Of a stretch of DNA of 64,000 bases, positions 12,444 through 29,960 are shown piece after piece (position 1 is the stretch's first letter; every line of letters begins with the position of its first letter). The stretch spans positions 310,001 through 374,000 of the forward strand of contig JALCKY010000001.1 in NCBI GenBank assembly GCA_022647575.1. The letters are read 5' to 3'. The notes beneath the pieces are model-generated. The model did not search any database, was not told where the DNA came from, and was given only the letters and a program-made list of their open reading frames with translations. The stretch is from Lachnospiraceae bacterium. GTDB taxonomy: Bacteria; Bacillota; Clostridia; Lachnospirales; Lachnospiraceae. A program made the position numbers and the translations under genes.

Positions 12444-12457
12444 TATTGCTGTCTTCT

Positions 12458-14179: not shown

Positions 14180-15567
14180 CAGTAATGCCTCACGACCTGG
14201 AATCTCTGAAGATGCACGTCCTTTTCGCCTGCGGGAATTCCCGCCTTGCTCTGCGCGATCCGGATCTGTTCGCTGACCGTCTGCACGCCGTCGAGATTCG
14301 GAAGAAGCAGTCCTCTCTTCCATCCCTTCGAAACGATCACGCCGTATTTCTTCACGTCCAGCTGATCCGGACTGTCGATGTCCTCCGCTTCTCCCAGGAT
14401 ATCGACCGTAATGGAAAGATAGGGAAGCTCATCCTCCGTGATCGGATCGAAGCGCGGGTCCTTTGTCGAAGCGCTGATGGCATTGCTGACGATTTCTTCG
14501 GCGATGCAGTTCTCCGCTGCGGAAATCGTCCCGATGCATCCTCTCAGCCGGCCGTCCTCATGAATCGAGACAAAGGCGCCGGCCTGCCCGTTCTTCATTT
14601 CCGGAGGAAGATCCTCCGGCGGCACAAGCCTTTTATGACGGCGGATATACGCTTCGACGGCGCTGCGGGCCAGACGGACATAATCGTCCTCCCGGCTTCG
14701 CTCTGCCTTAACGCCCGCCTTTCTTTTCTCCTCATAGAGATCCAGGAACCTGCGGGAAGCATCTGCTTCCAGAGGCTGATAGGCGCAGACGCCGTACCCG
14801 ACTCCGAAAGGACCTTCATAGGAAAGTTTTTCCGCCTTCACGGCCGTCCCATCCAGCGCGCCGGCCATGATCGTAAAGGAGCGGTGTCCGCATTCTCCTG
14901 CTTTCTCACAGAAGTCTTCGTCAAAGGAAAGCAGTTCGCCGAAGTTTCCCTCTCCCATTACGTCCATGATCCTTGCATCGTATTCCGGTCCTTCTTTGGC
15001 AAAACCGTAAGGCCCGTCTTCTTTCAGACGGTGTGAAAGGTCTCCGCTGCCGATGAAGACGATCCGGCGTCCGAGATCTCCGGCTGTCTTCCGGATATAG
15101 GTTCCGAGCCTGTAATGCATCGGCAGGGACAGGCCCGAAAGCCCGATGCGCACGGTGCGGTACCCGGTATAGAACTGATTCACGAAATAGAGCGGAATCA
15201 TCGAGGCATGATCCAGTTCCGGATCCTTCTCTCCCTGCGTCCCCGCGGGGAAATCCTCTTCACGGCACAGGGAAGAGAGTGCTTCCGCAAATTCCGTATC
15301 GTAATCCGTTCTGATCTTCGCTTCTCCCGCGCCGAAAGAACGGAAGGAGCCCTGTGCGCTGCGCCCCGGCGATATATGGAAATAATCCGCATACATGACC
15401 GAATGCGGTGTCGTGATGACAATGGTATCCGGATGCAGTTCCGCCGTCCTGCGTCCGACTTCCCTGTAAGATCTGATGGTTGCCGAAATTTTCTTTTCCT
15501 GTCCGCGTCCGACTTCCGGAATGATCAGCGGCGGATGAGGAACCATGAATGCACCGATAATCGCCAT
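14179..15567 (-). CDS. Fused LigB/Memo-like and AMMECR1 protein (AmmeMemoRadiSam system)
   Basis: This 462-residue two-domain protein joins functions usually encoded separately. Residues 1 to about 275 resemble the class III extradiol dioxygenase (LigB) superfamily, to which Memo belongs: MVPHPPLIIPEVGRG, VITTPHSVMYADYFH, LDHASMIPLYFVN and IGSGDLSHRL supply candidate metal-binding His/Asp/Glu. Residues about 290-462 are an AMMECR1 domain with the family motif LRGCIGTIS and DPRFDPIT. The ATG at 15567 has GGAGG 6 nt upstream. The radical SAM partner overlaps its stop, which supports a shared pathway. The promoter shares its -35 box with a divergent gene. Substrate unknown. Confidence 0.88.
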   Translation of the reverse strand: MAIIGAFMVPHPPLIIPEVGRGQEKKISATIRSYREVGRRTAELHPDTIVITTPHSVMYADYFHISPGRSAQGSFRSFGAGEAKIRTDYDTEFAEALSSLCREEDFPAGTQGEKDPELDHASMIPLYFVNQFYTGYRTVRIGLSGLSLPMHYRLGTYIRKTAGDLGRRIVFIGSGDLSHRLKEDGPYGFAKEGPEYDARIMDVMGEGNFGELLSFDEDFCEKAGECGHRSFTIMAGALDGTAVKAEKLSYEGPFGVGYGVCAYQPLEADASRRFLDLYEEKRKAGVKAERSREDDYVRLARSAVEAYIRRHKRLVPPEDLPPEMKNGQAGAFVSIHEDGRLRGCIGTISAAENCIAEEIVSNAISASTKDPRFDPITEDELPYLSITVDILGEAEDIDSPDQLDVKKYGVIVSKGWKRGLLLPNLDGVQTVSEQIRIAQSKAGIPAGEKDVHLQRFQVVRHY

Positions 15568-15596: not shown

Positions 15597-15648
15597 ATTC
15601 TACCTTTGCCCGTGAGGAATTGCAAGACAGGCCTTGCTATGCTAAAAT
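15597..15648. promoter_or_regulatory. Divergent promoters sharing one palindromic -35 hexamer
   Basis: TTGCAA at 15620-15625 is its own reverse complement. On the plus strand it is 17 bp from an extended -10 TGcTAAAAT (hexamer 15643-15648). On the minus strand it is 17 bp from TAGAAT (plus-strand 15597-15602). Both spacings are optimal, so polymerase binding for the two directions should be mutually exclusive. Confidence 0.75.
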
Positions 15649-15680
15649 CCACATGAAAGTAAATGTCCGGAGGTAAATGC

Positions 15681-16208
15681 ATGTCTGACATTCCCTATAA
15701 AATTCCCGTCCAGATCGGCCACAGCCCGACTCTCCGTTTTCGCCTGGCTCCTGTCAGCAAAAAAATCATGAGCGGCGACGCCGACTGGATTGACTCAAAA
15801 GAATTCTGCGTCGACAATATCTGCGGCCACGAATTCCTTCTTCCCTTCATTGAACAGTTCCTGCCCGATGAATTTCTTTTCCGCAACGAGATCAACCTGA
15901 TGCCGTTTTCCAATGCATCCAGGATGTCTGAAGAGATCCGGAAAACGGTGTCCCTTCTGAAAACCGATTACGGCAGCCCTGCCCTGGCCGGGATCAAGAA
16001 GCATTTCTCGCTGGACCTCCTCGTTTCCGGAGAGGAGTACAACCGAAAATACCTGCTGCTCTCCGGTCCCCAGAAAGCGCAGGCAGTCCGCGACCGCATC
16101 GGCGTCGTCATTGATTTCTACACGCAGTTTGCCGGCTGGCTGGATTCCGTGATTGCGGAATATGAACCGAAGGATTTCCACCAGCTCGCCGTCACTTCTC
16201 CGGCCTGA
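15681..16208 (+). CDS. Conserved-looking hypothetical protein
   Basis: I do not recognise a family. The protein is 175 residues, predicted soluble and cytoplasmic, with no signal peptide or transmembrane helix. It begins MSDIPYKIPVQIGHSPT and has an alpha-helical C-terminal half ending in an amphipathic segment. The start at 15681 has GGAGG 7 nt upstream; an in-frame GTG/ATG a few codons earlier lacks one. Promoter evidence at 15620-15648 supports it as a real gene. Its 3' end overlaps the convergent metallophosphatase by 17 bp. Confidence 0.7.
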   Translation: MSDIPYKIPVQIGHSPTLRFRLAPVSKKIMSGDADWIDSKEFCVDNICGHEFLLPFIEQFLPDEFLFRNEINLMPFSNASRMSEEIRKTVSLLKTDYGSPALAGIKKHFSLDLLVSGEEYNRKYLLLSGPQKAQAVRDRIGVVIDFYTQFAGWLDSVIAEYEPKDFHQLAVTSPA

Positions 16209-16995
16209 CAGTTCCCGGCACGTAGAATTCGGCAAGATCCTCCAGGCGGAGGCAGCCGAGCATGGCCAGATCCGGATCCGTCGAAGCGCATCCGCAGTCA
16301 ATTCCGATCAGGTGCCCCTTCCCTCCGTGGAAAATGCGGCCCCTGCCGTCAGGCGCGGTTCCGTCAAGATAGCACGTCGGCGTATGGCCGAAGACCATTT
16401 TCATTTTCCGCGGATACATTGCATAGAGCTCTTTATATTTCCCGGCGGCAGGCTGTTCCCTGCCGTCTTTTTTCTGCGGATAGTCACGGTCCCATACAAC
16501 ATGGGAAATCTCCGTCTCCGGAGCATCGGAAAGAAAAACCGGATGCCGGGCAAACCGGTCAAGGTGAGTCGAATGGCACAGATAGAAGTCCCGCCCGTTC
16601 ACTTTCAGATCCGGAATGACCAGACAGGCATTCCGGATATAGCCGATGATTTCCCTCTGCTCTTCCACGTGAAGGAGCGTGAATTCCTCCCAGGTCGTCT
16701 CGCCGCCGTTGTACTGCCAGTTCAACCACTCCTCTGACAGAAAGAAGTTTCTGCCCGAAACCGCCTCCGAAGCTTTTTCGCAGGCCTTCAGAAACAGGAT
16801 TTCATGATTGCCTGCCAGCAGGATGATGTTCGGCTGCCCCATAATGAAAAGATAGATCCGTATGCCGTCGGGGCCCCGGTCGGAAACATCTCCGAGGATA
16901 TACAGCACGTCGTCATCCGAAAATTTAATTTTCTTCAGCATGGCCCGGAAAAGGTCATACCGTCCGTGGAGATCGGAAAGAACATAGGTGCTCAC
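16192..16995 (-). CDS. Calcineurin-like metallophosphatase (PPP-type Ser/Thr phosphatase or Ap4A hydrolase-like)
   Basis: This cytoplasmic dinuclear-metal phosphoesterase has 267 residues. The signatures are in canonical order: LSDLHGRYD (D8, H10), LGDVSDRGPDG (about 34-44), LAGNHE (about 60-65), a later His in YLCHSTH and the C-terminal FGHTPT. These match the PPP superfamily, which includes protein phosphatases and ApaH-type nucleotide hydrolases; the sequence alone does not settle which. It overlaps the preceding gene by ATGA and is therefore the last gene of the operon that includes the nitrogenase-like cluster, unless transcription stops earlier. Confidence 0.87.
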   Translation of the reverse strand: MSTYVLSDLHGRYDLFRAMLKKIKFSDDDVLYILGDVSDRGPDGIRIYLFIMGQPNIILLAGNHEILFLKACEKASEAVSGRNFFLSEEWLNWQYNGGETTWEEFTLLHVEEQREIIGYIRNACLVIPDLKVNGRDFYLCHSTHLDRFARHPVFLSDAPETEISHVVWDRDYPQKKDGREQPAAGKYKELYAMYPRKMKMVFGHTPTCYLDGTAPDGRGRIFHGGKGHLIGIDCGCASTDPDLAMLGCLRLEDLAEFYVPGTVRPEK

Positions 16996-17906
16996 GGAAT
17001 CGTGCTCCCTTCGGGAATTCCCTCCTGGTCCGGATCCCAGTTCTTGATATAGGCTTTCTCAGTGTACGGATCTTTGTAAACGACTGTTCCGGCCTCCGCC
17101 GGTACGAAGCCGTGAATGATGCAGCCTTCGAAATTGACCGTCTGCGTCATATAGTCGCAGCGGTCTGCGTATTCGTCCGAGCTGACGGCCGCACTGTCGT
17201 GCGGTTCATAGAGGAACACCTCGTACGTATTGACGCCTTCCGTGACGTCTGCCCAGTAGTTCTCGTAATTGGAAGTCTTCATCCAGGAATTGTCATTTTT
17301 CGTACTGCTGAAATACAGCTCCGTCAGCAGACCGTTCCGCGTGGCAGCCTTCGTCGAGCCGTTCCCGTTTTCCCGGTAGGCATCATAGTTCTTCTTTTCA
17401 TAAAAGGTAAGGGTCATCGTATCATAGACCGGATCGGTGAAATTCTCTTCCGTGTTGTTGACGTACCGGCACTGCACGACGACATTGCCGACCCAGCAGC
17501 CCGGAATCGTCAGGCTGAACAGTTTGGTCCTGATGTCCGCGGAAGTGATGTCTTCCACGACGCTGTTGTTGGGAATACTCAGGGTTCCGTCATTCCCGAC
17601 CACCGCTTCGGCATAAGGCGAAAAGTCTTCTTCCGCCGCGATCTCGGCCGGAATGACCGGTACCGGCGTCGGCGTCGGGAAAGCGATGACATAATGGTCG
17701 GAAAGCCGGTCGTCTGTTCCGGAGACGCCGGAATCCGCCTCATTTCCGCGGACGGCCTTCAGGTTCACTTCTTTCTGCGCAGAAACCGTGCTGCCCTGTC
17801 CCTGGTTTCCTTCTCCGATGCGGTATCCGGCGAAGATGCCCGAAACCACGACCGCAGCGCCGGCAGCCGCTAAGAGAATTATTTTAGCTTGATTTTTCAT
17901 AGCCAT
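16992..17906 (-). CDS. Secreted or membrane-anchored protein of unknown function
   Basis: I recognise no family. The 304-residue protein has a basic N-terminus (KNQAK) and a hydrophobic segment at about residues 8-27, consistent with a signal anchor. A low-complexity region follows, with a proline-rich linker PTPTPVPVIP near 76-85, then a beta-rich domain with many aromatic and Asn/Thr residues. It has no lipobox or sortase motif. The ATG at 17906 and a second at 17900 are both possible. No Shine-Dalgarno is visible, and a TGcTATAAT box ends 1 base before the first ATG, so the transcript from that promoter would be leaderless from the second ATG. It overlaps the phosphatase gene by 4 bp. Confidence 0.75.
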   Translation of the reverse strand: MAMKNQAKIILLAAAGAAVVVSGIFAGYRIGEGNQGQGSTVSAQKEVNLKAVRGNEADSGVSGTDDRLSDHYVIAFPTPTPVPVIPAEIAAEEDFSPYAEAVVGNDGTLSIPNNSVVEDITSADIRTKLFSLTIPGCWVGNVVVQCRYVNNTEENFTDPVYDTMTLTFYEKKNYDAYRENGNGSTKAATRNGLLTELYFSSTKNDNSWMKTSNYENYWADVTEGVNTYEVFLYEPHDSAAVSSDEYADRCDYMTQTVNFEGCIIHGFVPAEAGTVVYKDPYTEKAYIKNWDPDQEGIPEGSTIP

Positions 17907-17907
17907 G

Positions 17908-17916
17908 ATTATAGCA
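17908..17916 (-). promoter_or_regulatory. Extended -10 element directly before the start of the secreted-protein gene
   Basis: TGcTATAAT on the minus strand (hexamer 17908-17913). The position 17 bp further upstream has no good -35. Transcription starting the usual 7 nt after the box would begin at about 17900, which is an in-frame ATG. Confidence 0.5.
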
Positions 17917-17918
17917 CA

Positions 17919-19190
17919 TCAGGAAGAGAAAAACTTTTCCCGCAGCCAGCCGGAAAAACCGCGGCCTGCAAATACCGGGATCCCGCTGCGGTACAGCCTG
18001 CCCGAATATGCTTCATGGGGAAAGTCGATGAACCTGACGTCCTTCCTTTCGATGATTCTGCGGTAAATGGGATCGGCAATGACCGTCAGTCCGGGCTGAT
18101 TCAGAAGCTTTTCAAAATCCTCTTCCTCATCAGTCGCCGTATCCCCCGGCCGAAGGAAACCGTCCGTGATTTCCGTGGGGCAGATCAGGCGCACGTTTTC
18201 AGCCCCCAGTTCCTGCTCAAGGCAGGTCCTGACGGCATTGGCAAAGACCGGCTCCCCGATGATGACGGTGCCGGATCCGCTTCCGGAAATCCGGCTGTCC
18301 GGGATATCACCGGCTGCTTCCCCGGTTTTCCCAACCGGAAGAATCTCTTCCGGTTTTCCGGTCTCCGCCGGTTCTTCCGGAATCCGCAGTGCTGCCGCAG
18401 CATCCCGGAGAAGCTGTTCCGCCGCCGCTTTCCCGGCCGGAATACCGGTCACGTACGGAATCCCGAATCTCTTCTTCAGGACTTCCGCGGCAGCGATTCC
18501 CGAAGTCGAAACGACGATGCTCAGATCGGCATCGCCTGCCGACGACAGGTTTTCAAGCGTATCGCCCATAGCCCAGCAGCTTTGGACGGACATCCCGTTC
18601 TCCGCAAGGAAAGATCTCATCGCCTCAGCGTTGCCGACGATTGAGAAGTCCAGCGGCGTGACGCCGATCAGATTGACGGAAAGCTTCTTCTGCCTCTCCG
18701 TTCCGGATCCGGAAGCTTCCTGAGTCCGGGGATTTTCATTTCTCTTCCGGCAGAAGCGCTCGGCCACTGCGGCAAAGGCGTCCCCCGCTCCCCGGATATA
18801 GGTATGCATGCCGTCCGTCCTGAATCCGAACGACGGTATTCCGCTTTTCTTCTCAAGGATCCTGGCGATGGCACGGAAATCCGTTCCGAGAAGATACGGC
18901 ATCGGACTGCCGCAGACCGCAATGAATTTCGGATGGGTCTCTTCGGCTGCCTCGAGGATGTCCCCGATGATCTTTGCATCATTTCCCAGAATGGCATCCT
19001 GCTCCGTCAGCCCCGACACGTAGATCATGCTGTCGATGTCATACCACCGCGGCTCGTCATGCGTGTTGTAGGTCGAGTTGCAGCCGGAGGCATCGTGCAT
19101 GACGATGAGTCCGCCGAGTTCATAAAGGGCGGAGCACAGTCCGAACAGGTCGGCAGAATAATTGGCCAGCACTCTCTGTACCTGCTTCAT
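17919..19190 (-). CDS. Nitrogenase component 1-like protein (second pair, NifK/N-like)
   Basis: This 423-residue protein of the oxidoreductase/nitrogenase component 1 superfamily has no known substrate. The N-terminal domain has LYELGGLIVMHDASGCN (C37), HDEPRWYD and VCGSPMPYLLGTDF (C93), with C19 a further candidate ligand; these fall where nitrogenase P-cluster cysteines lie. It closely resembles the gene at 25190-26332 (shared YELGG, DEPRW, DAILG, GTDFRA), so the two are paralogues. The middle region has an insertion rich in Glu, Pro and Gly (about residues 290-330). The ATG at 19190 overlaps its partner stop (ATGA). The longer frame to 19298 is rejected as overlapping the partner. Confidence 0.85.
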   Translation of the reverse strand: MKQVQRVLANYSADLFGLCSALYELGGLIVMHDASGCNSTYNTHDEPRWYDIDSMIYVSGLTEQDAILGNDAKIIGDILEAAEETHPKFIAVCGSPMPYLLGTDFRAIARILEKKSGIPSFGFRTDGMHTYIRGAGDAFAAVAERFCRKRNENPRTQEASGSGTERQKKLSVNLIGVTPLDFSIVGNAEAMRSFLAENGMSVQSCWAMGDTLENLSSAGDADLSIVVSTSGIAAAEVLKKRFGIPYVTGIPAGKAAAEQLLRDAAAALRIPEEPAETGKPEEILPVGKTGEAAGDIPDSRISGSGSGTVIIGEPVFANAVRTCLEQELGAENVRLICPTEITDGFLRPGDTATDEEEDFEKLLNQPGLTVIADPIYRRIIERKDVRFIDFPHEAYSGRLYRSGIPVFAGRGFSGWLREKFFSS

Positions 19191-20518
19191 CCGCAGCACC
19201 CCCATCCCTTGACGGAAATGATGGCCTTCGTGTCTGCCTCCGCAGAGCATGCTTCTTCCGCCATGCGGCAGAGCGAGACGATTCCGCGGAATCCCCACAA
19301 TCCGCCGTTCTGGATCAGGTTGACGAAATGCTTCGTGCCTGAAAAATAAGCCGCCTTCTGGCCGATCGCCAGCAGTTTTCCCTGTTCCTCCTGCGCCTCA
19401 TCCCGGGGCGCGATGCGGCACCGGAAATTGATCGTCGCACGGAGCGGAAGATCCGGTGCATTTTCCTTCAGGTACTTCAGCGCCTTTTCCTCCTCCGGAA
19501 GAACCGCATCGGCATAGACTGCCTTCACGCGGATTCCGCGGGAAATGAAGAGGGCTGCCAGGCCGAGCGGACGGCTGACCGCCGTATAGTCGATCTCGAC
19601 CGGCGTATCGCCGAGGACCGCTTTCAGACGGGCAAGCGCCGCATCCGCTTCCGATTCCAGGGCTTTTATATCAGGGACCCGGGCATGGAAACTCCCGGCC
19701 GCCTCAGTGAGTTCTTCTTCAATTTCTTCATAGTCGAAGGAAACCGGAAGGGAGACCGCTTTCTGGCCGAGCCTTTTCTCCAGTGCAAGCGCTCCCGCTT
19801 CCGCTGCCTTCCAGGTATAGATGTTCGCCGCGCTGCTTCCCATTTCCAGATACTCCGGATATTCCCGGCAGCGGCAGATATCACGGATCCGGAAGCCGGC
19901 TTCCGTCAGCATTTCCCCGAGTTCGCTTCCTGTATCAAATGCAAAATCATTGCCGACGACATTGACGGATTTCGGATCCTTCTCCTGCTGCTTCAGGGCA
20001 TCATAGAGGGAAATCCTCATCAGTTCATCCGGCGTGTATTTCGATTTTCTCATGGTCGGGAGCATGAAGCATTCCAGGATGTCGATATCCGGGAAGCGCT
20101 CACGGAGCCTCCGGAAAATCCCCGGAAGATCGATTCCCATGAAATGCTGGATGCAGCAGGAATAGACGAGCACGGCAGGCGGACGCTGCGGAAGACGGCG
20201 GATGATGTCCGTCACGCCGTCTTCAAAAAGCCGCTCCATTCTCCCATTGACGAAGTCTCCTTCTTTGACCGTCACCATGGAGAAGCGGTCGAGGCCTCCG
20301 TACTCCGCCGCGGAAAGAACGACGCCGCGCAGGCATCCTTCCGGGCACACGAAGATCTGATGCGAATGGGGAATCAGCATCGAGGTATGCGCAATGGTCC
20401 AGGTGCCCCGGGCAGGGGCTGAATATTCCAGTCCCGCCCGGAACGGCTGAGTCGTATCGATGTCAGCCATCCGGACGTCTGCATTTTCCGTATCGGTTTT
20501 ATGAAGATTGATCAGCAT
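19187..20518 (-). CDS. Nitrogenase component 1-like protein (second pair, NifD/E-like)
   Basis: This is a 443-residue component-1 superfamily member. Candidate cluster ligands are C58 and C62 in IFVCPEGCLRG and C121/C122 in VYSCCIQHFMGIDLPG, which aligns with the nitrogenase motif around the third P-cluster cysteine. Later segments, such as VNVVGNDFAFDTGSELGEM and VEIDYTAVSRPLGLAALFIS, are Rossmann-like. The protein ends GWGCCG, an unusual Cys-rich tail. I favour the ATG at 20518 (GGAG 8 nt upstream); an ATG at 20545 is possible. It lies 52 bases after hypE and overlaps its partner by 4 bp. It lacks enough nitrogenase hallmarks to be called NifD. Confidence 0.84.
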   Translation of the reverse strand: MLINLHKTDTENADVRMADIDTTQPFRAGLEYSAPARGTWTIAHTSMLIPHSHQIFVCPEGCLRGVVLSAAEYGGLDRFSMVTVKEGDFVNGRMERLFEDGVTDIIRRLPQRPPAVLVYSCCIQHFMGIDLPGIFRRLRERFPDIDILECFMLPTMRKSKYTPDELMRISLYDALKQQEKDPKSVNVVGNDFAFDTGSELGEMLTEAGFRIRDICRCREYPEYLEMGSSAANIYTWKAAEAGALALEKRLGQKAVSLPVSFDYEEIEEELTEAAGSFHARVPDIKALESEADAALARLKAVLGDTPVEIDYTAVSRPLGLAALFISRGIRVKAVYADAVLPEEEKALKYLKENAPDLPLRATINFRCRIAPRDEAQEEQGKLLAIGQKAAYFSGTKHFVNLIQNGGLWGFRGIVSLCRMAEEACSAEADTKAIISVKGWGCCG

Positions 20519-20570
20519 GCTTCCCGCTCCGTTTCCTTTCGTCATTCTTTGGCATCCCTCAGGAATCCGG

Positions 20571-21575
20571 TCAGCAGATCCTCGGCAGAAGTTCTCCGCC
20601 CGGAGGCGGCAGAAGCGTCGACCCGCCGATTTCCGTATCGATGACGACACGTCCCGGATATTCTTCCGTGACTTCTCCGATCACCGCAGCTTCCGAAGAA
20701 TATTTTCCCCTGCGCAGGACGGCAACCAGTTCTTCCGCCTTTTCCTTCGGGGCAAATACGACCAGCCGTCCCTCGCACGCCAGGTAAAGAGGCTCCAGTC
20801 CCAGCATTCCGCAGACGCCGCGGACGCTTCCGTCCACCGGGATATCCTTCTGGTTCAGGCGGATTCCGACATGGCTCTGCTCTGCGATTTCATAGAGGAC
20901 GGTTCCGACGCCGCCGCGGGTGGCATCGCGCATCACGTGGATGTCCTTGGTGACTGCCAGCATGGACTGGACCGTTCCCCACAGGGGAGCGCAGTCCGAC
21001 TTGACATCGGCCTCAATGCCGAATTCATTTCTGGAAAGGAGAATGGCGCAGCCGTGACGTCCGACGTCGCCGGTCACGATGACGGCATCGCCTGGTTTTG
21101 CGCAGGCGCCGGCAGGACTTGCCCCTTCCGTGATCCGGCCGATTCCGGTCGTCGTGATGAAGACGCCGTCGACCTGTCCCTTTCCGGCAACCTTTGTATC
21201 GCCGGCAACCAGTTCGACTCCCGCTTCCTTCGCCGTCTTTTCCATGGCTTCCGCAATCCGGTCAAGCTGCTTCATCGGGAAGCCTTCCTCGATGACAAAT
21301 GCGCAGCTCAGATACAGAGGCTGCGCCCCCATGCAGGAAAGGTCGTTGACCGTCCCGCAGATGGAAAGCTTGCCGATGTTGCCGCCCGGGAATTCGGACG
21401 GTGAGACGATGAATCCGTCTGTCGTCATGGCGATTTTTCCGCCGGGTGCCGGAAGCACGGCTGCGTCATCCGACGTCAGGTTTTCATTTGCAAAATGCTT
21501 CTTGAATACTTTCTCGATGAGCTCGGAAGTCTGGCGGCCTCCGGCTCCGTGTGCCAGTGTGACTATTTCGTCCAT
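20571..21575 (-). CDS. hypE: Carbamoyl dehydratase HypE
   Basis: HypE takes a carbamoyl group from HypF onto its C-terminal cysteine and dehydrates it with ATP to thiocyanate, the cyanide donor for [NiFe] hydrogenase. The 334-residue protein ends exactly in the required PRIC tail (C334). LAHGAGGRQTSELI, LTSDDAAVLPAPGG, DLSCMGAQPLYLSC and MRDATRGGVGTVL are typical of the PurM-like fold. The ATG at 21575 has GGAGG 10 nt upstream and lies inside the end of hypD (13-bp overlap). It is embedded between two nitrogenase-like gene pairs. Confidence 0.97.
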   Translation of the reverse strand: MDEIVTLAHGAGGRQTSELIEKVFKKHFANENLTSDDAAVLPAPGGKIAMTTDGFIVSPSEFPGGNIGKLSICGTVNDLSCMGAQPLYLSCAFVIEEGFPMKQLDRIAEAMEKTAKEAGVELVAGDTKVAGKGQVDGVFITTTGIGRITEGASPAGACAKPGDAVIVTGDVGRHGCAILLSRNEFGIEADVKSDCAPLWGTVQSMLAVTKDIHVMRDATRGGVGTVLYEIAEQSHVGIRLNQKDIPVDGSVRGVCGMLGLEPLYLACEGRLVVFAPKEKAEELVAVLRRGKYSSEAAVIGEVTEEYPGRVVIDTEIGGSTLLPPPGGELLPRIC

Positions 21576-22630
21576 TTGAATGATCCTCCGTATTTGTAAT
21601 AGGCAGAGCAGGCTCCCTCGCTGGAAACCATGCAGGCTCCGACCGGATGCTCCGGCGTACAGCCTTTTCCGAAAACACCGCACTCATCCGGCTTGCATTT
21701 TCCCTGCAGGACATCCCCGCACCGGCAGAGCGGATTCGCACGGCCCTCGATCTTCGGAAGGCTGAATTTCTTCCTGGCGTCGTAATCCGCGTAGGAGTCG
21801 TTCAGCTTCAGCCCGCTCATCGGGATCACGCCCAGTCCTCTCCATTCGGCATCGCACGGCACCATGGTCTCCGCGATGATTTTTCTTCCGCTGACCGAAC
21901 CTTCCTCGGTCACGACTCTCGGATAGCAGTTGACGAAAAACGGCTCCTCCTTCTCCGACTTGATCAGGATCACCGCCAGGGCCGTCAGGATCTCCGGTGC
22001 AGTGAAGCCCGTCACGACGCCCGAGATTCCCTCCTTCAGCAGCTCATGATAAATGCCGCAGCCGGAGATTACGCTGACGTGTCCCGGATACAGGAACGCA
22101 TCGGCGGAGCCTTTCAGGGCACGGTAGGCATTGTCCATCGTCTTGTTGGCGGTCAGCAGGGAAAAATTCTGCAGCCCTTCTTTCCTCGCATTGCGCGCCG
22201 CAATGCAGCTGGCCGGCGTCGTCGTTTCGAATCCGACGGCAAGAAAAACCGTCTGCTCCGCAGGATGCTTTTTCGCATACTCGACGGAATCGAGGGGCGA
22301 ATAGACGACTTCGATCTTCGCGCCTTTTGCCCTGGCTCCGGCCAGAGACATTTCCGTGCCCGGAACTCTGACGAGATCGCCGAAGGTGCAGATCGTCGCA
22401 CCCTTGTCAAGGGCCAGCATGACCGCCTCATCGATGAAGCCCGTCGGTGTCACGCAGACCGGACAGCCCGGCCCTGAAATCAGCGTGACGGCATCGGGCA
22501 GCATTCCCCGGATTCCCAGACGGAAAATCTCATGGGTATGCGTTCCGCACACTTCCATGATCCGGATTTTTTTCCCGTGATAGCCGCGGACGATTTCTTC
22601 CGCTTTCCGGCTTTCCGCATCCATGCTCAT
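21563..22630 (-). CDS. hypD: Hydrogenase maturation iron-sulfur scaffold HypD
   Basis: With HypC, HypD holds the iron on which the CN and CO ligands are assembled. The 355-residue protein has VCGTHTHEIFR (C28), the redox pair GPGCPVCVTP (C56, C59), VGFETTTPA and the C-terminal [4Fe-4S] region with Cys in CRCGDVLQGKCKPDECG, GKGC and GACMVSSEGAC. All family hallmarks are kept, so it should be functional. It overlaps hypC by 4 bp and hypE by 13 bp, giving a tightly coupled FCDE order. Confidence 0.97.
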   Translation of the reverse strand: MSMDAESRKAEEIVRGYHGKKIRIMEVCGTHTHEIFRLGIRGMLPDAVTLISGPGCPVCVTPTGFIDEAVMLALDKGATICTFGDLVRVPGTEMSLAGARAKGAKIEVVYSPLDSVEYAKKHPAEQTVFLAVGFETTTPASCIAARNARKEGLQNFSLLTANKTMDNAYRALKGSADAFLYPGHVSVISGCGIYHELLKEGISGVVTGFTAPEILTALAVILIKSEKEEPFFVNCYPRVVTEEGSVSGRKIIAETMVPCDAEWRGLGVIPMSGLKLNDSYADYDARKKFSLPKIEGRANPLCRCGDVLQGKCKPDECGVFGKGCTPEHPVGACMVSSEGACSAYYKYGGSFKWTK

Positions 22631-22836
22631 TGAAGTCCCTCCATAATGCTCTCCGTCTCAGCCTGATCATCCGACGTGATTTTGGCAATCGCCATGCCGG
22701 CATGCACCATGACATAATCGCCCGGCATCAGATCCTGAAGCAGCTCCGCCGAAACGGTCCTTGTCGCGCCGGTCGCATCCACGACCGCCACTCCGTCCTC
22801 TACCTTCTTTACCCTGGCAGGAAGTCCTACGCACAT
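22627..22836 (-). CDS. hypC: Hydrogenase maturation chaperone HypC (nitrogenase-like operon copy)
   Basis: HypC shuttles the Fe(CN)2CO group from HypD to the hydrogenase large subunit through its N-terminal cysteine. The start at 22836 gives MCVGLPARV with C2 exposed after Met removal, as the family requires, and places AAAGGAG 10 nt upstream; the in-frame ATG three codons earlier is too close to that site. The protein is 69 residues with H45 in the conserved VMVHAGMAIAKI. A second HypC is encoded at 41092-41382 in the hydrogenase operon. Confidence 0.95.
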   Translation of the reverse strand: MCVGLPARVKKVEDGVAVVDATGATRTVSAELLQDLMPGDYVMVHAGMAIAKITSDDQAETESIMEGLQ

Positions 22837-22841
22837 TTTTC

Positions 22842-25193
22842 TCATTCTCCTTTCATTTTTTCCATCGCAACCGCCGCCTGACCGAGGGCAATGCCCCCGT
22901 CGTTGGCCGGCGTCAGTGAATGCTCCAGTACCTGAAATCCTTTTTCCGCAAGTCCTTTTTCACACATCCCGAGGAGGAGCAGATTCTGCATCACGCCTCC
23001 GCTCAGGGCTGCCGCCGTGACCTGCGTCATTTTCCGGCATTCCTCACAGCCGCGGACGATCATGTCCGAAATGCTCCTGTGGAAAATGTAAGCCAGTTTT
23101 CCTCTGTCCTCACCGTTTTCCCGTCCCTTCGCCATCCGCCTGATCAGGGCAGCCGTATCCATTGTAAAGAAGGGCCGGTTCTCAAAAGAAGATTTAAAAA
23201 TTCCGCATTCCGTTTTCTCTTCGGCCTCCGGTTCCTTCACCTTTTCCGGATGCTCCTCCGCCCAGCGGGATGCCTCATATTCCAGAGCCATCGAAGCCTC
23301 GCCTTCAAAGGTCGACTGCCGGCGGATTCCGAGGACAGCCGATATCGCATCAAAAAGCCTTCCGGCGCTCGTCGAGGTGACGCAGTTGATCCTGCCGCGG
23401 ATCATCGCTTTCTGAAGCTTCAGTTCCTGAGGGCTGCAGAGCTGCAGGCTGAGGATCGTCCTCTCCGCCTCCTCTTCTGTTTCCATGCTCTTCAGGATCA
23501 GCGATACCGCGACGCGCCAGCCTTCCTTTGCAGCCAGATCTCCTCCGGCCTGAGGAAAAGGATCGATGGCTCCCAGCCTGCGGTATGAATGAAGATCCGC
23601 GAGCAGGAATTCACCGCCCCAGATGGTTCCGTCGCTGCCGTACCCCGTTCCGTCAAAGGAAACCCCGATTGCCTTCCCACGGAAATCATTTTCCGCAAGG
23701 CAGGCGGCAATGTGCGCCCAGTGATGCTGCACCTCGAAAACCGGAAGAGAATGCGCCGCTGCATATTCCCGCCCGAAGGCCGAGGAATTGTAGCGCGGAT
23801 GCATGTCGACCGCCACCGCTTCCGGTTCGGTCTCCAGCAGATTCTCCATGCGTGTCACGGCGGCAGAAAGCGCTTCCGCACTTCTCAAATCCGCCATGTC
23901 CCCGATATAGGGCGAAGGATAATACAGTTCCCCCGTCGCCAGACAGAACGTATTCTTCAGTTCCCCGCCGACCGCCAGCACCCTGTGCGGAATCTTTTCC
24001 GAAGAAAGGAACGGAAGGGGCGCATAGCCTCTCGACCGACGGATCATATACGGCTTTCCGTCATGCCATGCCATGACGGAATCATCCGCACGGATTCGGA
24101 TATCCCGGTCATTGGTCAGGATGATGTCGCAGATGCCCGAGAGTTCCTTCTCCGCTTCGGCATCGTTCATGCAGATCGGCGCTCCCTTCGGATTGCCGCT
24201 GGTCATCACGAAACAGTCCGTCATGCCTTCCGGATCCGGCGGGTAGTCAAAAAGCAGAAGCTGAACCGGGGCATAGGGAAGCATGATGCCGACAAAGGCA
24301 TTGTCCGGGGCGCATTCCCTGCAGATGCGGGTTCCGTCTCCGGTTTTCTTTTTCAGGAGAAGGATGGGCTTCTGCGGACCGGTCAGGATTTCTTCCTGTC
24401 CGTCTTCCACGAGGCACTCTCTCCTTACGGTATCCATATTCTTCAGCATCACGGCCAGAGGCTTCATCGGACGGTGCTTGCGCTGCCGGAGCAGCCTTAC
24501 GGCTTCGGCATTGGATGCATCGCAGCAGAGGTGAAAACCTCCGATTCCCTTGACTGCCGCAATCCCTCCTTCGCGGATGACCCGGCGCGTCTTCAGAATC
24601 GCTTCCGCGTCCCGTTCTCCGCTTCCGATCACAGAAAGATGCGGGCCGCAGTCCCTGCAGCAGACAGGCTGGGCATGGTAGCGGCGGGTACTTGGATGCG
24701 TATATTCGTATTCACAGTCCGGGCACATCGGAAATTTCCCCATGCTCGTCCGTACCCGGTCATACGGCATGGAGTCCAGAATGGTCAGTCTCGGTCCGCA
24801 GGCCGTGCAGTTGATGAACGGATGCAGATAGCGCCGGTTTTTCGGATCATAAAGTTCAGCGGCGCATTTGTCGCAGATGGCGATGTCCGGCGATACAAAG
24901 ATATCCCCTTTCACCTTGGCGCTGCGGATGATCCGGAATTCTTCCTCTCCTTCAGCCGGAAAATCCTGCGTTTCAACCTTCAGGATGGAAGAACGCTCCG
25001 GTGCCTTTTCCGTCAGATGATGCAGAAAGATTTCAGATGCTTCTTCCGTCCCTTCGATGAAGATTTCGACATAGGGACCTTTGTTGCAGACCGATCCCGC
25101 AAGCCCGTCCTGTCTGGCCGCACGCGAAACAAAAGGCCTGAAGCCCACGCCCTGCACGATGCCGTATACCCTTATCCTTTTCCGGACTCTCAT
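22842..25193 (-). CDS. hypF: Carbamoyltransferase HypF
   Basis: HypF uses carbamoyl phosphate and ATP to carbamoylate HypE, the first step to the hydrogenase cyanide ligands. The 783-residue length is normal. Domains in order are: acylphosphatase (residues 1-90, GIVQGVGFRPFV), two CX2CX18CX2C zinc fingers (C107/C110/C129/C132 and C157/C160/C179/C182), a YrdC-like domain (AVKGIGGFHLCCDA, KHRPMKPLAVM) and a Kae1-like C-terminal domain (VQHHWAHIAA, SFDGTGYG, ALSGGVMQN). The ATG at 25193 overlaps the upstream component-1 gene (ATGA); a longer frame to 25343 is rejected for that reason. Confidence 0.97.
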   Translation of the reverse strand: MRVRKRIRVYGIVQGVGFRPFVSRAARQDGLAGSVCNKGPYVEIFIEGTEEASEIFLHHLTEKAPERSSILKVETQDFPAEGEEEFRIIRSAKVKGDIFVSPDIAICDKCAAELYDPKNRRYLHPFINCTACGPRLTILDSMPYDRVRTSMGKFPMCPDCEYEYTHPSTRRYHAQPVCCRDCGPHLSVIGSGERDAEAILKTRRVIREGGIAAVKGIGGFHLCCDASNAEAVRLLRQRKHRPMKPLAVMLKNMDTVRRECLVEDGQEEILTGPQKPILLLKKKTGDGTRICRECAPDNAFVGIMLPYAPVQLLLFDYPPDPEGMTDCFVMTSGNPKGAPICMNDAEAEKELSGICDIILTNDRDIRIRADDSVMAWHDGKPYMIRRSRGYAPLPFLSSEKIPHRVLAVGGELKNTFCLATGELYYPSPYIGDMADLRSAEALSAAVTRMENLLETEPEAVAVDMHPRYNSSAFGREYAAAHSLPVFEVQHHWAHIAACLAENDFRGKAIGVSFDGTGYGSDGTIWGGEFLLADLHSYRRLGAIDPFPQAGGDLAAKEGWRVAVSLILKSMETEEEAERTILSLQLCSPQELKLQKAMIRGRINCVTSTSAGRLFDAISAVLGIRRQSTFEGEASMALEYEASRWAEEHPEKVKEPEAEEKTECGIFKSSFENRPFFTMDTAALIRRMAKGRENGEDRGKLAYIFHRSISDMIVRGCEECRKMTQVTAAALSGGVMQNLLLLGMCEKGLAEKGFQVLEHSLTPANDGGIALGQAAVAMEKMKGE

Positions 25194-26332
25194 CCTCCGA
25201 GCTTCTCCCTGAAATCCCTGAAATATTCTTCTTCCGTCCCGCAGGCATACAGACTGCCCGATACCGCGAAATGGGGAAGGTTTACATAATCTATTCTTCT
25301 TCCGGCCGGCACTCTCCTGAAAAGAGGATCGCCGGCCAGGCATCCATAATCTCCGTTCTGAAGAAGAGCGGCAAATTCCCCTTCATCCTTCAGATAAAAA
25401 TCATTTTCTCCGGTCAGCTCCGGAGAGGCGGCGAAGAAGGAAGCCGTATCGATCCTGCCCGTATATCCGGAGTCCCGGAGGACCTCCCGGAGATTCCGTG
25501 CCAGGATCTGCTGGTGGACAATCAGGATATTTCCGGATCCTCCGCGGACCGGCGCTGTCCCGAAAACATCCGCAGACTCCAGCTTCATTCCGCACTCATA
25601 CGGAATTCCGAAATCCTCCTTCATCTTCACGGCAGCGGAAAGACCGGAAGGCGAAACGACAAGATTCCTCCGTACCTTCGATGCACCCTTCCAGGCCGGG
25701 AAACCGCTTCCGAAACCATAGCAGGCGGAACGGCCTCCTCCGTTTCTTTCCACTCTTTCCTTCAGTGTCTCAGGACTCTGAAGCGTCGGAAGATCAAGAG
25801 GCGTGGCTCCCAGGATTCCCGTTTCATTTTCCTCTTCCGTACATCCTGCAAAAAGGGCTGCGGCTGCGGAAGAAGAATCCTTCTCCGCCTCGGACAGGAG
25901 CTGCAGCAGAGCCTGATAAGCTTTCTCCTGGCCGCGCTCATAAGTCTCCATGCCGTTCGTATCGACAGCAATCACCGGAAGCCCGAAGCGGCGTTCCGCC
26001 ATTCTTTTCAGTGCGCGGAAATCCGTTCCGATCACCGAGGGCACCGGCGTTCCGATCAGGCCGATGAAAGAAGCCTCCACCGCCTTCAGGGCGTCGCCGA
26101 TCTTATCCATCATCCGGCTGTCCCGTCCCAGGATCGCGTCCATGTCCCGAAGTCCCGCGGAAAAGACCGCGCTTCTCCCGCTGAACCACCGCGGTTCATC
26201 AAAACCGCATACATTTCCGGCACACCCTCCGGCATCGATGATGACCAGGAGGCCGCCGAGCTCATAAAGGACCGAAACGGCTCCGCTCTGATCCGGAGAG
26301 AAAGGGGACAGATATTTTAAAAGTCCTTCCAT
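25190..26332 (-). CDS. Nitrogenase component 1-like protein (first pair, NifK/N-like)
   Basis: This is a 380-residue component-1 superfamily member, short for a nitrogenase subunit. Candidate ligands are C37 and C42 in DAGGCAGNVCGFDEPRW. The segment GTPVPSVIGTDF, which in the paralogue at 17919-19190 is preceded by a Cys, has none here, so any metal cluster would be bound differently. The ATG at 26332 has GGGAGG 8 nt upstream and overlaps the partner gene by 16 bp; at its 3' end it overlaps hypF by 4 bp. That coupling to hypF is the strongest sign that the nitrogenase-like and Hyp proteins are made together. Confidence 0.85.
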   Translation of the reverse strand: MEGLLKYLSPFSPDQSGAVSVLYELGGLLVIIDAGGCAGNVCGFDEPRWFSGRSAVFSAGLRDMDAILGRDSRMMDKIGDALKAVEASFIGLIGTPVPSVIGTDFRALKRMAERRFGLPVIAVDTNGMETYERGQEKAYQALLQLLSEAEKDSSSAAAALFAGCTEEENETGILGATPLDLPTLQSPETLKERVERNGGGRSACYGFGSGFPAWKGASKVRRNLVVSPSGLSAAVKMKEDFGIPYECGMKLESADVFGTAPVRGGSGNILIVHQQILARNLREVLRDSGYTGRIDTASFFAASPELTGENDFYLKDEGEFAALLQNGDYGCLAGDPLFRRVPAGRRIDYVNLPHFAVSGSLYACGTEEEYFRDFREKLGG

Positions 26333-27615
26333 GAAAGTGCCTCCCCCGTCGTTCGTAAAAGATCCCCGAGACCTTTCCAGCCGAACGGCTGCTTCTCGGA
26401 ATTCCACCCGACGGAAACCGCCTCCGGGAAATAGCCGCCGATATCTTCTCCGTACGCGATGTCCGCGCGGATCTCTTTCCGGTAATTCAGCATCGTCGGC
26501 GATATTCCGGAAAACATCCTTGTTTCCGGAGCGATGGCCGCCAATGCCCGGATATACGGATAGTCATAGGAAGACGGAATCGCGATGACCGCCTTCGGCT
26601 CCATCCCGGTCCGGGCCAGCGAATAAGCCAGTTCGAACGGATTGGCATTCAGCATCTGCCCGACGGCAAATGAAGTTCCCTTTGCCCTTTCCCGGAATTT
26701 TCCAAGAAGCGACCGGGTTTCTTCTCCCAGTCCGGAAAAATCCGGATGGGTTCCCACTGCGGAGGCAAACATTTCATACTGTTTTCCGATCCGTTCGGAA
26801 TCATAGATCCTTGCCATCTCGATATAGGGAATCCCGAGGCGGTCCTTCAGATCTTCGGCGGCATAGAGTGATTCGGGATTCAGCACGATATTGAAATTGG
26901 CTTCTCCCATTTTCTGATACTCTTCCAGCGTCTTCATGGCCGAGACCTGCCGGACCGTACGGATGCCGATTTTTTTCAGGACCTCAAACAGGTCGCTTTC
27001 CGGATCGACCGGCGTAAAGAATCCCATCAGGTTCACCGCCGACGGATCCGTTTTTCCTTTTTTCAGAAGCGAATAGATCGTCCTGCGGATGGCCGTCATC
27101 GGGGGTTTGATGCCTTCCCTTGTCAGCGCATACATCGTGCTCGGCACGACATGCACGCCGGTCTCCTCCTCTGCCCTGCGGCAGACTCTTTCCAGATCCG
27201 TTCCCAGAAGGGCATCGACGCAGGTAATGCAGATGACGACAGCTTTCGGCACCGGATCCGCCGTCTTCAGGATTTCCCTGACGGCATCCGGAATCACTTT
27301 GAGATGCCGGCCGGAAATCAGATCTGTTTCATCCATATTCAGGTAGTACATTCTCTGGGCATAATCTTCCCTGCTGCCGAGTATCGTCGAATTCCTGCCG
27401 CAGCATCCGGGAGCCACCAGCAGCATCACCGATTCCGGGATGACCAGCCCTGCCCTTTTTACCCCGAAGCCGAAAGCGCCCGGGGAATTGTAGGAAAGCG
27501 TTGCCGGCGAACTGTAGACCAGATGGCAGGAAGGAATAAAGGCATCCGGAATCTGCTCCGGTCCTCTTTCCGCCAGTTCCCTGCAGGTTATGGAATAAGG
27601 TTCCGCTGTCGTCAT
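26317..27615 (-). CDS. Nitrogenase component 1-like protein (first pair, NifD/E-like)
   Basis: This is a 432-residue component-1 superfamily member. Cysteines in the positions expected for cluster binding are C30 (FIPSC), C71/C72 (VAPGCCGRN) and C129/C132 ([16 protein letters not shown], equivalent to the nitrogenase TCP-GDD region). The C-terminal half has [17 protein letters not shown] and [12 protein letters not shown]. It overlaps the NifH-like ATPase gene by ATGA, so the reductase and this subunit are translationally coupled. It resembles group IV-type nitrogenase homologues of unknown function more than NifD. Confidence 0.86.
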
Positions 27616-28364
27616 TTCTCATCCTTTAAAAGCAGTTCTGCAAGCTCCAGGAATTTCCGGCTGATCGGCAGTTCCCTGTTTCCTTCAATGACCGTCATGC
27701 CTTCATCCTCGAATCTTGAAATGTCATCGTTCCTCGGGATATCCGCCACGATCTCCAGACCGTTCCTGTCCGCGAACTCCCTGACTTTCTTTTCTTCATC
27801 CGGGGTGTTCCTGCGGTTCAGGATGATTCCCCGGACTTTTGCATAGCTCCGGTCCTCAAAATTCTTCACTGCCTGATTGATGTTATTTGCCGCGTAAAGC
27901 GCCATCTTCTCCCCGGAAGTCACGATCAGGACTTCCTGTGCGTATCCCTCCCGGATCGGTGCTGCGAATCCGCCGCAGACGACGTCTCCCAGGACATCAA
28001 ACAGGACGACGTCCGGCTTTTCCTTCTCCAGAAGTTTCAGGTTTTCCAGCAGGTCGAACGTGGCGATGATTCCCCTTCCGGCACATCCCAATCCCGGCGT
28101 CGGGCCGCCCGTTTCGATGCACAGCACCCCGCCGAAGCCTTTCCGGACAGCCTCCTCCAGCGTCGGAGGCTCATCATGCTCCCGCATATAATTCAGGACC
28201 GGTTCGATCATTTCCCCCTTCAGAAGGTTCATCGTAGAGTCCGCCTTCGGATCGCAGCCGATCTGAATGACTTTTTTTCCGAGCACGGCAAATGCCGCAC
28301 TCAGGTTGGCGGTCATCGTTGATTTTCCGATGCCGCCCTTTCCGTAGATTGCAATCTTCAGCAT
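27612..28364 (-). CDS. NifH-like [4Fe-4S] reductase ATPase
   Basis: This is a homodimeric ATP-dependent electron donor of the NifH/BchL/CfbC superfamily. It is 250 residues, a little shorter than NifH. Seen are the P-loop GKGGIGKST (residues 8-16), the switch region GCDPKADST (36-44) and the two cluster cysteines, C94 in GLGCAGRG and C130 in [11 protein letters not shown]. All residues needed for a bridged [4Fe-4S] cluster and ATP hydrolysis are present, so it should be active. It is the only such reductase in the window and would have to serve both component-1-like pairs. Its start overlaps the regulator gene by 7 bp. Confidence 0.93.
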
Positions 28365-28642
28365 GTTTCCGCTCCTTCCGTCGTGACCTTCGTAACCATG
28401 GATTTCACGGAGGCACCGGCTATCCTTCCGAGCCTGCCCGTCAGGGCGGAAATCTCATCCCCTGTTCCGTCCACGATCAGGGAAATGACCGAAATCTGCT
28501 TTTCGCGGTAGGGAACTCCCATCCGCCCGATCACGAGCCCGTTCGACTCATGAATCGCTTCGTTCACTTTCTTCACGCATTCCAGGTCGCGGATCACGAT
28601 TCCGATGATTCCGATTCTCTTATCCGTATTCTCTTCACTCAT
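28358..28642 (-). CDS. TM1266-type putative regulator of iron-hydrogenase systems
   Basis: This small 94-residue protein matches the TM1266 family, annotated as a putative regulator because it is often encoded near [FeFe] hydrogenase genes. It has a ferredoxin-like (ACT-type) beta-alpha-beta pattern: [32 protein letters not shown] and [23 protein letters not shown]. No DNA-binding motif is seen. The ATG at 28642 is preceded without a gap by a hairpin and U tract that hold its Shine-Dalgarno AAAGGAGC. A longer frame to 28684 would start within the hairpin and is rejected. It is the first gene of the nitrogenase-like/hyp operon. Confidence 0.87.
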
Positions 28643-28676
28643 AAAAAAGCTCCTTTCCGCGCAGGCGAAAAGGAGC
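28643..28676 (-). terminator. Leader hairpin with U tract overlapping the first ribosome-binding site of the operon
   Basis: The arms GCTCCTTTTCGC and GCGGAAAGGAGC form a 12-bp stem (one G-U pair) with loop CTGC, followed by six T and then directly the ATG at 28640-28642. The Shine-Dalgarno AAAGGAG (28650-28656) is in the 3' arm. The element could end transcription, hide the ribosome-binding site, or both. Confidence 0.85.
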
Positions 28677-28804
28677 ATCATCAACGGCTTATTCAGCGCA
28701 TTTCCTGATTCTGCGCCCTTCCGCTCGGAATTCTCTGCGGTCGGTGTTGTGTCGGCCGCGCATCCCCGGCGGAAATTTCCGCAGCAGATACGCCGTCTTC
28801 ATTT
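28643..28804 (-). promoter_or_regulatory. Structured 5' leader of the nitrogenase-like/hyp operon (candidate riboswitch or attenuator)
   Basis: This transcribed leader of about 160 nt between the promoter at 28811-28839 and the first start codon has several potential helices. They include the palindrome GCGGAAATTTCCGC, TTCC-GAGC-GGAA and GCGCA...TGCGC. GCGGAAGG (28717-28724) can pair with CTTTTCGC in the 5' arm of the terminal hairpin (28665-28672), giving an alternative to that hairpin. No aptamer family is recognised; Moco, NiCo and other metal- or cofactor-binding classes are the ones to test. Confidence 0.6.
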
Positions 28805-28810
28805 GTTAAG

Positions 28811-28839
28811 ATTATATCACTTGATTTCTTCCGTGTAAA
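28811..28839 (-). promoter_or_regulatory. Sigma-A promoter of the nitrogenase-like/hyp operon
   Basis: TTTACA (28834-28839), 17 bp and extended TGaTATAAT (hexamer 28811-28816) are read on the minus strand. The -35 lies inside the last codons of xdhC, and the xdhC stop TGA supplies the TG of the extended -10. Confidence 0.85.
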
Positions 28840-29845: not shown

Positions 29846-29866
29846 CGTCCGGCTCCTTTTCCTCCG

Positions 29867-29875
29867 ATTATATCA
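29867..29875 (-). promoter_or_regulatory. Extended -10 promoter of the xdhC-like gene
   Basis: TGaTATAAT on the minus strand (hexamer 29867-29872), 21 bp upstream of the ATG and just after the previous terminator. The region 17 bp upstream is T-rich without a clear -35. Confidence 0.6.
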
Positions 29876-29888
29876 GACCTGTGTCCAA

Positions 29889-29921: not shown

Positions 29922-29960
29922 AGCATTTCTGGAAACATACATTCCGCGGGTACGGATTTT

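Follow-up and report, generated by a model that had tools for sequence, protein, structure and literature searches.

The stretch of Lachnospiraceae bacterium DNA analysed here (assembly GCA_022647575.1, contig JALCKY010000001.1, positions 310,001 to 374,000; 64,000 nucleotides, hereafter the window) contains a minus-strand operon that encodes a NifH-like ATPase and two pairs of nitrogenase component-1-like proteins together with the hydrogenase maturation proteins HypF, HypC, HypD and HypE. We propose, with a probability of roughly 70%, that this operon is part of a HydG-independent pathway for maturation of the H-cluster of [FeFe]-hydrogenases, a role inferred from gene linkage and from the absence of HydG. 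At the level of the genome sequences, the following is established: the gene linkage, the lack of HydG, the lack of a [NiFe]-hydrogenase in 12 of the 14 genomes with the linkage, and the conservation of the catalytic residues of the Hyp proteins. The decisive context is the [FeFe] system, i.e. HydE, HydF and a TM1266-family regulator in combination with the absence of HydG, and this lay beyond the view of the first-pass annotation of the window.

The operon starts with a member of the TM1266 family, which putatively regulates the [FeFe]-hydrogenase system (28358-28642; PF21699, 98.5 bits; TIGR03959, 102.7 bits against a cut-off of 60.8), whose longer open reading frame begins with TTG at 28684. 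It is followed by the NifH-like ATPase, H1 (27612-28364; PF00142 (Fer4_NifH), 286.8 bits), and by the first component-1 pair, consisting of the alpha-like c1a (26317-27615; PF00148 (Oxidored_nitro), 113.6 bits) and the beta-like c1b (25190-26332; PF00148, 60.3 bits). Then come the carbamoyltransferase HypF (22842-25193; TIGR00143, 733.7 bits), HypC (22627-22845; PF01455, 79.6 bits), HypD (21563-22630; TIGR00075, 381.8 bits) and HypE (20571-21575; TIGR02124, 425.5 bits), and finally the second pair, the alpha-like c2a (19187-20518; PF00148, 68.1 bits) and the beta-like c2b (17919-19190; PF00148, 115.3 bits), of a type that in relatives is linked to HydE and HydF. The first-pass annotation had described a single operon of twelve genes, ending in a secreted protein and a phosphatase. 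All twelve reading frames were found on the minus strand (16192-28684), and the listing of reading frames and the profile scores agreed with the families it had named, but only ten genes recur as a unit. Since the secreted protein and the phosphatase (16192-17906) had no match across the 26 relative loci examined, the conserved unit is taken as 17919-28642. The overlaps between neighbouring reading frames had been correctly given as 4-16 bp, including the ATGA shared by c1b and hypF (25190-25193), and 4-bp overlaps were also found at c2a/c2b and between the secreted protein and the phosphatase.

Hyp-linked and transporter-linked loci and the absence of HydG

In the labels of this analysis G-numbers are genomes, L-numbers are loci and g67 is a genus. 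In a survey with c1a of 391 genomes from the class to which the source organism belongs, orthologues were identified in ten other genomes from three families, with identities to c1a of 47-52% in this survey and of 46-51% in an alignment of ten loci. Nine of these ten have the gene order NifH, c1a, c1b, hypF, hypC, hypD, hypE, which in eight of the nine loci continues with a regulator or a second NifH-like gene (placed ahead instead in L047) and c2a-c2b; G355 has c2 on a separate contig. The genes of G311 are distributed over two contigs, NifH-c1a-c1b-hypF and hypCDE-c2a-c2b-HydF-HydE. L047 encodes a fusion of a NifH-like protein and c2a (10709-12805, minus strand; 698 residues) that adjoins HydE, HydF, c1 and hypFCDE. 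Three of the 80 GTDB c2 loci described below also contain c1a and hypFCDE; they are from uncultured clostridial, Lentisphaeria and Megamonas genomes, and c1b was not called in the Megamonas locus. Thirteen genomes besides the source genome, one of them from another phylum, rule out that the linkage is limited to the window, and the total for this Hyp-linked version (type B) is 14 genomes. The short loci L027-L035, around other hits of the c1a survey, were not c1- or c2-like (65 bits to c1a or less). Within the 13 c1 loci themselves, calling gave no transporter gene.

The c1-linked Hyp proteins of all 14 genomes contain the motifs that we take to be catalytic, namely Cys2 in MCVG of HypC, CGTH and GPGCPVC of HypD and the C-terminal PRIC of HypE. 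Every one of the 14 c1 genomes has HypD, as do three of the 50 tested c2 genomes without c1 in the locus (G391, G406, G419). A [NiFe]-hydrogenase large subunit was not found with PF00374 and PF00346 in 12 of the 14 c1 genomes: PF00374 matched in the source genome and in Megamonas, PF00346 only in the source genome. Megamonas has a second HypD near its [NiFe] large subunit; the c1-linked HypD is on a different contig. Since the Hyp motifs are complete in 14 genomes and a [NiFe] large subunit was found in two, twelve genomes keep the full cyanide and iron machinery with no [NiFe] recipient found, beside [FeFe] maturation genes that lack HydG. The [FeFe]-hydrogenase domain PF02906 was detected in 32 of 32 genomes tested, among them all 14 c1 genomes. 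The source genome encodes HydF (550 bits) and has four PF02906 matches, three of them above 170 bits, and no HydG over the cut-off.

A commoner version of the system (type A) has c2 without c1 and Hyp. A scan of GTDB genomes with the c2a alignment matched 584 stretches, of which 562 encode relatives; the counts of loci given here are for the best 80. Of these, 77 are without c1 and hyp, and at least one gene for a FecBCD-like ATP-binding cassette (ABC) transporter was present in 71 of the 77, some of the remaining six being very short contigs. The transporter is nearest to the models for siderophore, haem and B12 transporters, and its FecE-like ATPase is fused to a TM1266-like domain in 44 of the 80 loci (e.g. 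L060, 12726-13784, minus strand). HydE was found in 40 loci, HydF in 28 and either of them in 48. A TM1266 regulator or fusion is present in 66 loci, and 75 have at least one of HydE, HydF and TM1266, while HydG occurred in none of the 80. In 37 loci HydE adjoins the c2-type NifH-like gene, and in 13 of these the two genes overlap by exactly 4 bp. In L058, HydE (557.7 bits) and HydF (566 bits) both score above the NCBIfam equivalog cut-offs; in other loci they were called by similarity to the L058 proteins and two more references. The TM1266 family is found at Hyd loci of relatives as well, and a control locus from a c2-negative g67 genome (L147) has the order regulator-HydE-HydG-HydF. No further gene was constant beside c2, and the largest clusters showed lineage-specific neighbours only. 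By eye, L123 (3549-4226, plus strand) and four related loci have a HypB-looking GTPase near c2. A FeoB-like protein, likewise recognised by eye, lies near c2 in L058, L065, L075, L080 and L098, which suggests iron supply.

Whole-genome searches agree with the loci. HydG over the cut-off was found in none of the 14 c1 genomes, source genome included, and in none of the 16 class genomes with c1 and/or c2. Fifty of the 80 GTDB c2 genomes were tested, at least two of them being identical with G228 and G378 of the class survey. HydG was over the cut-off in six; three of the fifty are c1 genomes, all without HydG, so that 41 of the 47 without c1 in the locus also have no HydG over the cut-off. With HydF taken as the mark of the pathway, and class genomes scored from hand-transcribed tables (261 HydF-positive at E <1e-85 and 239 HydG-positive, compared to automatic over-cut-off tallies of 260 and 240; seven HydG-positive genomes without HydF fall outside the comparison), 29 of the 391 class genomes have HydF and no HydG. 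Sixteen of these have c1/c2 (11 with c1, five with c2 only), compared to 0 of the 232 genomes with both HydF and HydG in the c1a survey (Fisher 5e-18, uncorrected for kinship). The same pattern is visible within genus g67, where six of six members with c1/c2 are without HydG and three of three HydF-positive members without c1/c2 have it. Two further genomes with HydF and no HydG, G280 (L040) and G368 (C38; by hits only), contain a different NifH/component-1 type that is outside the clades described in the next section.

Relationships of the NifH-like and component-1 proteins

The NifH-like protein had been described as keeping the P-loop and both cluster cysteines, and indeed the P-loop, C94 and C130 are invariant in 19 aligned relatives; R97, the Arg after C94, is present in nearly all of them. 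Its scores are below the NCBIfam cut-offs for nifH (297 bits, cut-off 394), CfbC (300.4 bits, cut-off 402), BchL (214.8 bits, cut-off 345) and BchX. The component-1 proteins reach at most 56.4 bits with the BchB model (cut-off 490), 18.4 bits with BchN (cut-off 420) and 21.5 bits with CfbD (TIGR03282, cut-off 268). Membership of the nitrogenase, chlorophyll, F430 or methylthio-alkane reductase (Mar) systems was therefore rejected, based on scores below the cut-offs and separate clades. The first-pass annotation had seen no nifB or other nitrogenase gene. Genome-wide, this was checked only for NifH, of which the source genome has one true copy, and with the c2a profile, which matched only c2a, c1a and c2b of the operon; no genome-wide search was aimed at nifB.

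Invariant cysteines are C71, C72, C129 and C132 in c1a, C37 and C42 in c1b, C58, C62, C122 and C441 in c2a and C37 in c2b. Profile alignments place C72 and C132 of c1a, C122 of c2a and C37 of c2b on cysteines of NifE or NifN, in line with the earlier observation that some P-cluster-position cysteines are kept. Because of these alignments, the component-1 pairs likely carry a bridging Fe-S cluster. There is no invariant cysteine after C132 in c1a, nor between C122 and the C-terminal C441 in c2a, and the component-1 alignments have no conserved cysteine at the position that we take to be that of the cofactor ligand in the nitrogenase alpha subunit. The two pairs are paralogous (hhalign E 1.9e-46 for c1a/c2a and 5.1e-68 for c1b/c2b). 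Profiles of c1a, c2a and c2b are distant from solved relatives, with NifE as the best match (E 1e-9 to 1e-22). The AlphaFold model of c1a (mean predicted local distance difference test score, pLDDT, 80.7) has NifEN as its best PDB match (E 1.6e-16), and that of c2a (mean pLDDT 82.6) is matched best by Foldseek to NifE/NifN and other component-1 chains (E ~1e-16).

Twenty-three GTDB loci from the set of 80 went into the phylogenetic trees, together with L037 and L043-L062 from the class. In the tree of NifH-type proteins, those that are hyp-linked form an H1 clade (14 rows, support 100/100) and the c2-type proteins an H2 clade (31 rows, 99/91). Together these (45 rows, 99/91) have ABC-linked relatives that lack Hyd genes as their sister group; NifH, BchL and MarH (9fmg) are outside the 45-row clade that holds H1 of the window. 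The branch of the BchL row is very long, and support is incomplete (94/99) for the split of Nif and Mar from the remaining sequences. The alpha-subunit tree has a c1a clade (14 rows, 99/97) and a c2a clade (38 rows, 100/100) with NifD and NifE outside, subject to a long-branch warning. Thus, a placement within the superfamily, as the first-pass annotation had suggested, puts H1, c1a and c2a outside the characterised clades that were included; CfbC was compared by profile score only. Judged by these trees and scores, the nitrogenase-like proteins form clades outside Nif, Mar and Bch. The ABC-linked sister group without Hyd genes comprises L053, L055-L057 and a plasmid of Treponema: pTS1 of Treponema saccharophilum (L167, 11959-18255) encodes a NifH-like protein, two component-1 proteins and an ABC transporter with no Hyd genes nearby. 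The sister type was also present in four class genomes with both HydF and HydG (G072, G148, G179, G269). L054 was labelled c1a/c1b by best score and has a transporter, but in the tree its alpha subunit belongs to the ABC-linked sister type rather than to c1a, and it was not counted as a c1 locus.

Proposed chemistry and competing explanations

HydG converts tyrosine to a mononuclear Fe(II)(CN)(CO)2 synthon, which HydE reduces and dimerises (PMC12752695). For type B we suggest that HypF and HypE would make cyanide from carbamoyl phosphate, while HypC and HypD would hold the iron. The NifH-driven c1 and c2 heterodimers, probably with a bridging Fe-S cluster, would give low-potential, ATP-gated electrons for making the diatomic ligands, which in the HydG route come from tyrosine cleavage. 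In the likeliest scheme, c1 would make or install CO on the Hyp scaffold and c2 would turn the resulting Fe-CN-CO species into a mononuclear Fe(CO)2(CN)-level synthon accepted by HydE, after which HydE and HydF would complete the [2Fe] unit. Where one NifH-like gene exists, as in the window, a single NifH-like protein may serve both pairs. CO supply by c1 and synthon delivery by c2 are proposed because the parts are at hand in type B, because ATP would be needed to reduce CO2 to CO, at about -530 mV (PMC12134894), and because NifH-type proteins alone are reported to carry out this reduction, as shown for A. vinelandii NifH both in vitro and in vivo (PMC9571451). In type A, c2 may act on an imported precursor, since the FecBCD-like transporter stands where type B has c1 and Hyp. 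This evidence is in keeping with the earlier idea that an ATP-driven reductase takes part in Fe(CN)2CO chemistry. The specific chemistry is nevertheless tentative, and which pair makes what is more tentative still. We consider it possible, and on balance doubtful, that the full scheme holds, in which NifH-c1 makes CO for HypCD-bound iron, NifH-c2 converts the Hyp product (mostly not for [NiFe]) to the substrate of HydE, the ABC transporter brings an organometallic or iron-cyanide precursor into those bacteria that have no Hyp, and CN is possibly rearranged.

Several findings weigh against a role in HydG-independent maturation. Six of the 47 GTDB c2 genomes without c1 in the locus do have HydG. 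The c1a survey scored at most four candidates per genome, so that c2 in HydG-positive genomes was maybe under-counted, and the majority of the genomes are metagenome-assembled. Three complete (>90%) genomes with HydF and no HydG (G160, G283, G334) are without c2 in the profile search; their loci (L152, L151 and L153, respectively) encode HydE, HydF and the TM1266 regulator and neither HydG nor c2, and a replacement for HydG was not found when these loci were read by eye. Therefore, c2 is not the sole way to dispense with HydG. Eight less complete HydF-positive, HydG-negative genomes also lack c1/c2, one of them (G057) having a weak hit, while g67 member G260 has a PF02906 protein without HydF, HydG or c2. 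In the source genome, HydE was not located directly; its presence is suggested only by a match to the HydG profile (8.8e-16), about as strong as the one that a HydE gives. The ABC-linked sister group without Hyd genes indicates that near relatives serve something else, and the type A transporter suggests an imported substrate, which would be unneeded for CO synthesis from CO2. Labelling in R. eutropha excluded exogenous CO2 as the direct source of the CO ligand of [NiFe]-hydrogenase (PMC12134894). Lastly, HydE and HydF alone give approximately 1% activation in vitro (as cited in PMC9431212), and cells without HydG may live on stray CO and CN.

A plain accessory role, in which the nitrogenase-like proteins help HypFCDE to build the cofactor of the membrane-bound (Mbh-type) [NiFe]-hydrogenase, had been left open by the first-pass annotation. 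The window does encode a group 4 (Mbh/Mrp-type) [NiFe] large subunit outside the operon (39538-40620, minus strand) with all four cysteines (RVCGIC and DPCFSC). A second HypC-family gene (PF01455; 41092-41523, minus strand) lies inside that hydrogenase operon, HypB is encoded elsewhere than in the nitrogenase-like operon, and the Mbh-type hydrogenase is likely a second client of the Hyp proteins in the source genome. However, the expected co-occurrence of the linkage with Mbh did not appear: by PF00374 and PF00346 only two of the 14 genomes have a [NiFe] large subunit, whereas all 14 have the [FeFe] domain. Moreover, among the genomes that link c2 to HydE/HydF, 50 were tested for HypD and 47 of these do not have it. 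This explanation is thus largely refuted and we consider it very improbable.

The transporter genes of type A raise the question whether c1 and c2 use ATP to reduce an iron chelate or tetrapyrrole taken up by the cell (siderophore, haem, corrinoid) and only supply iron to Hyd and Hyp maturation. The affinity of the FecBCD-like genes in 71 of the 77 loci to siderophore, haem and B12 models would fit this, as would the ABC-linked sister group, and the known relatives BchNB and CfbCD reduce tetrapyrroles. But it leaves unexplained why HydG in particular is missing, and why c1 stands in a hypFCDE operon, where the transporter is absent from the locus (called in 0 of 13 c1 loci), and we regard it as unlikely. 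There is also a small chance that the product of the system is some other, novel cofactor with Fe-CN or Fe-CO and that its association with HydE and HydF is regulatory, through shared TM1266 control. The TM1266 regulator or fusion is, besides the transporter, the most constant partner (66 of 80 loci) and six c2 genomes also have HydG; yet shared control accounts poorly for the 37 loci in which HydE adjoins the NifH-like gene, 13 of them with the 4-bp overlap, and for the strong inverse relation to HydG. We therefore prefer a function in HydG-independent maturation of [FeFe]-hydrogenases.

Flanking features and comparison with known systems

Upstream of the regulator, a promoter-like site (TTTACA-17-TATAAT with TG ahead of the second hexamer; 28811-28839, minus strand) was identified by consensus match only. 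It is the best such match (11/12) of the scanned stretch, in which eight sites were found compared to 5.6 expected by chance. Downstream of it and directly before the regulator ATG lies a strong terminator-like hairpin of 12 pairs with six T (28649-28676, minus strand), which could either terminate the upstream gene or act as an attenuator in the leader; the leader folds better than shuffles (z -3.6). The first-pass annotation had reported no visible terminator. On this point the scan of 15600-30000 was not informative (21 terminator-like sites compared to 15.1 expected), apart from the hairpin before the regulator. The leader RNA gave two sub-threshold matches in Rfam and no family at the gathering score. 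Directly upstream of the operon, an XdhC-like aldehyde oxidoreductase maturation factor (28817-29845, minus strand) scores below its cut-off. An AmmeMemoRadiSam set (AMMECR1/LigB-type protein and radical SAM partner; 13346-15567, minus strand) is located downstream, and an IS1182-family transposase is encoded at 56924-58390 (minus strand).

The CO and CN ligands of the H-cluster, five in all, are reported to derive from tyrosine, which is cleaved by HydG (PMC3105041). A 2022 survey of eight clostridial acetogens with HydE and HydF could not find a typical HydG in five of them and had no straightforward explanation (PMC9431212). In the open-access literature, outside of which most subscription papers and bioRxiv preprints fall, we found neither a nitrogenase-like system described for the maturation of hydrogenases nor any account of hypFCDE next to nitrogenase-like genes. 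Within that literature, the proposed HydG-independent nitrogenase-like route, which many anaerobic bacteria would use, appears to be previously unreported. The operon provides named candidate enzymes for [FeFe] maturation without HydG and for the source of hydrogenase CO in anaerobes, and the c2 bacteria include the cultured Loigolactobacillus rennini and Intestinibacter bartlettii, the latter also with HydG. Loigolactobacillus rennini DSM 20253 has HydF in its c2 locus as well as a [FeFe] domain, and its genome gave no HydG over the cut-off. If true, this would be a new role for the nitrogenase superfamily; and if NifH-c1 makes CO and c2 recasts the Hyp product, the maturation pathways of [NiFe]- and [FeFe]-hydrogenases would be joined chemically.

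Compared to the nitrogenase-like systems known so far, the light-independent protochlorophyllide reductase (DPOR, BchLNB), CfbCD and Mar also combine a NifH-type ATPase with two component-1 subunits for purposes other than nitrogen fixation, but H1 scores below every NCBIfam cut-off and is apart from MarH and BchL in the tree, CfbC again by profile score only. With NifEN and nitrogenase, c1 and c2 share the fold in predicted models and some cysteines at P-cluster positions, whereas they are distant in sequence, lack a conserved cofactor-ligand cysteine and form their own clades. The HypFCDE route of [NiFe] maturation has the same four Hyp proteins with conserved catalytic cysteines; here, in contrast, these are in one operon with nitrogenase-like genes and 12 of the 14 genomes are without a [NiFe]-hydrogenase. 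Finally, HydE, HydF and the TM1266 regulator are common to the HydEFG route and the system described here, but where the former has HydG, the latter has the NifH-c2a-c2b module, with HydG absent from all 80 loci and from most of the genomes.

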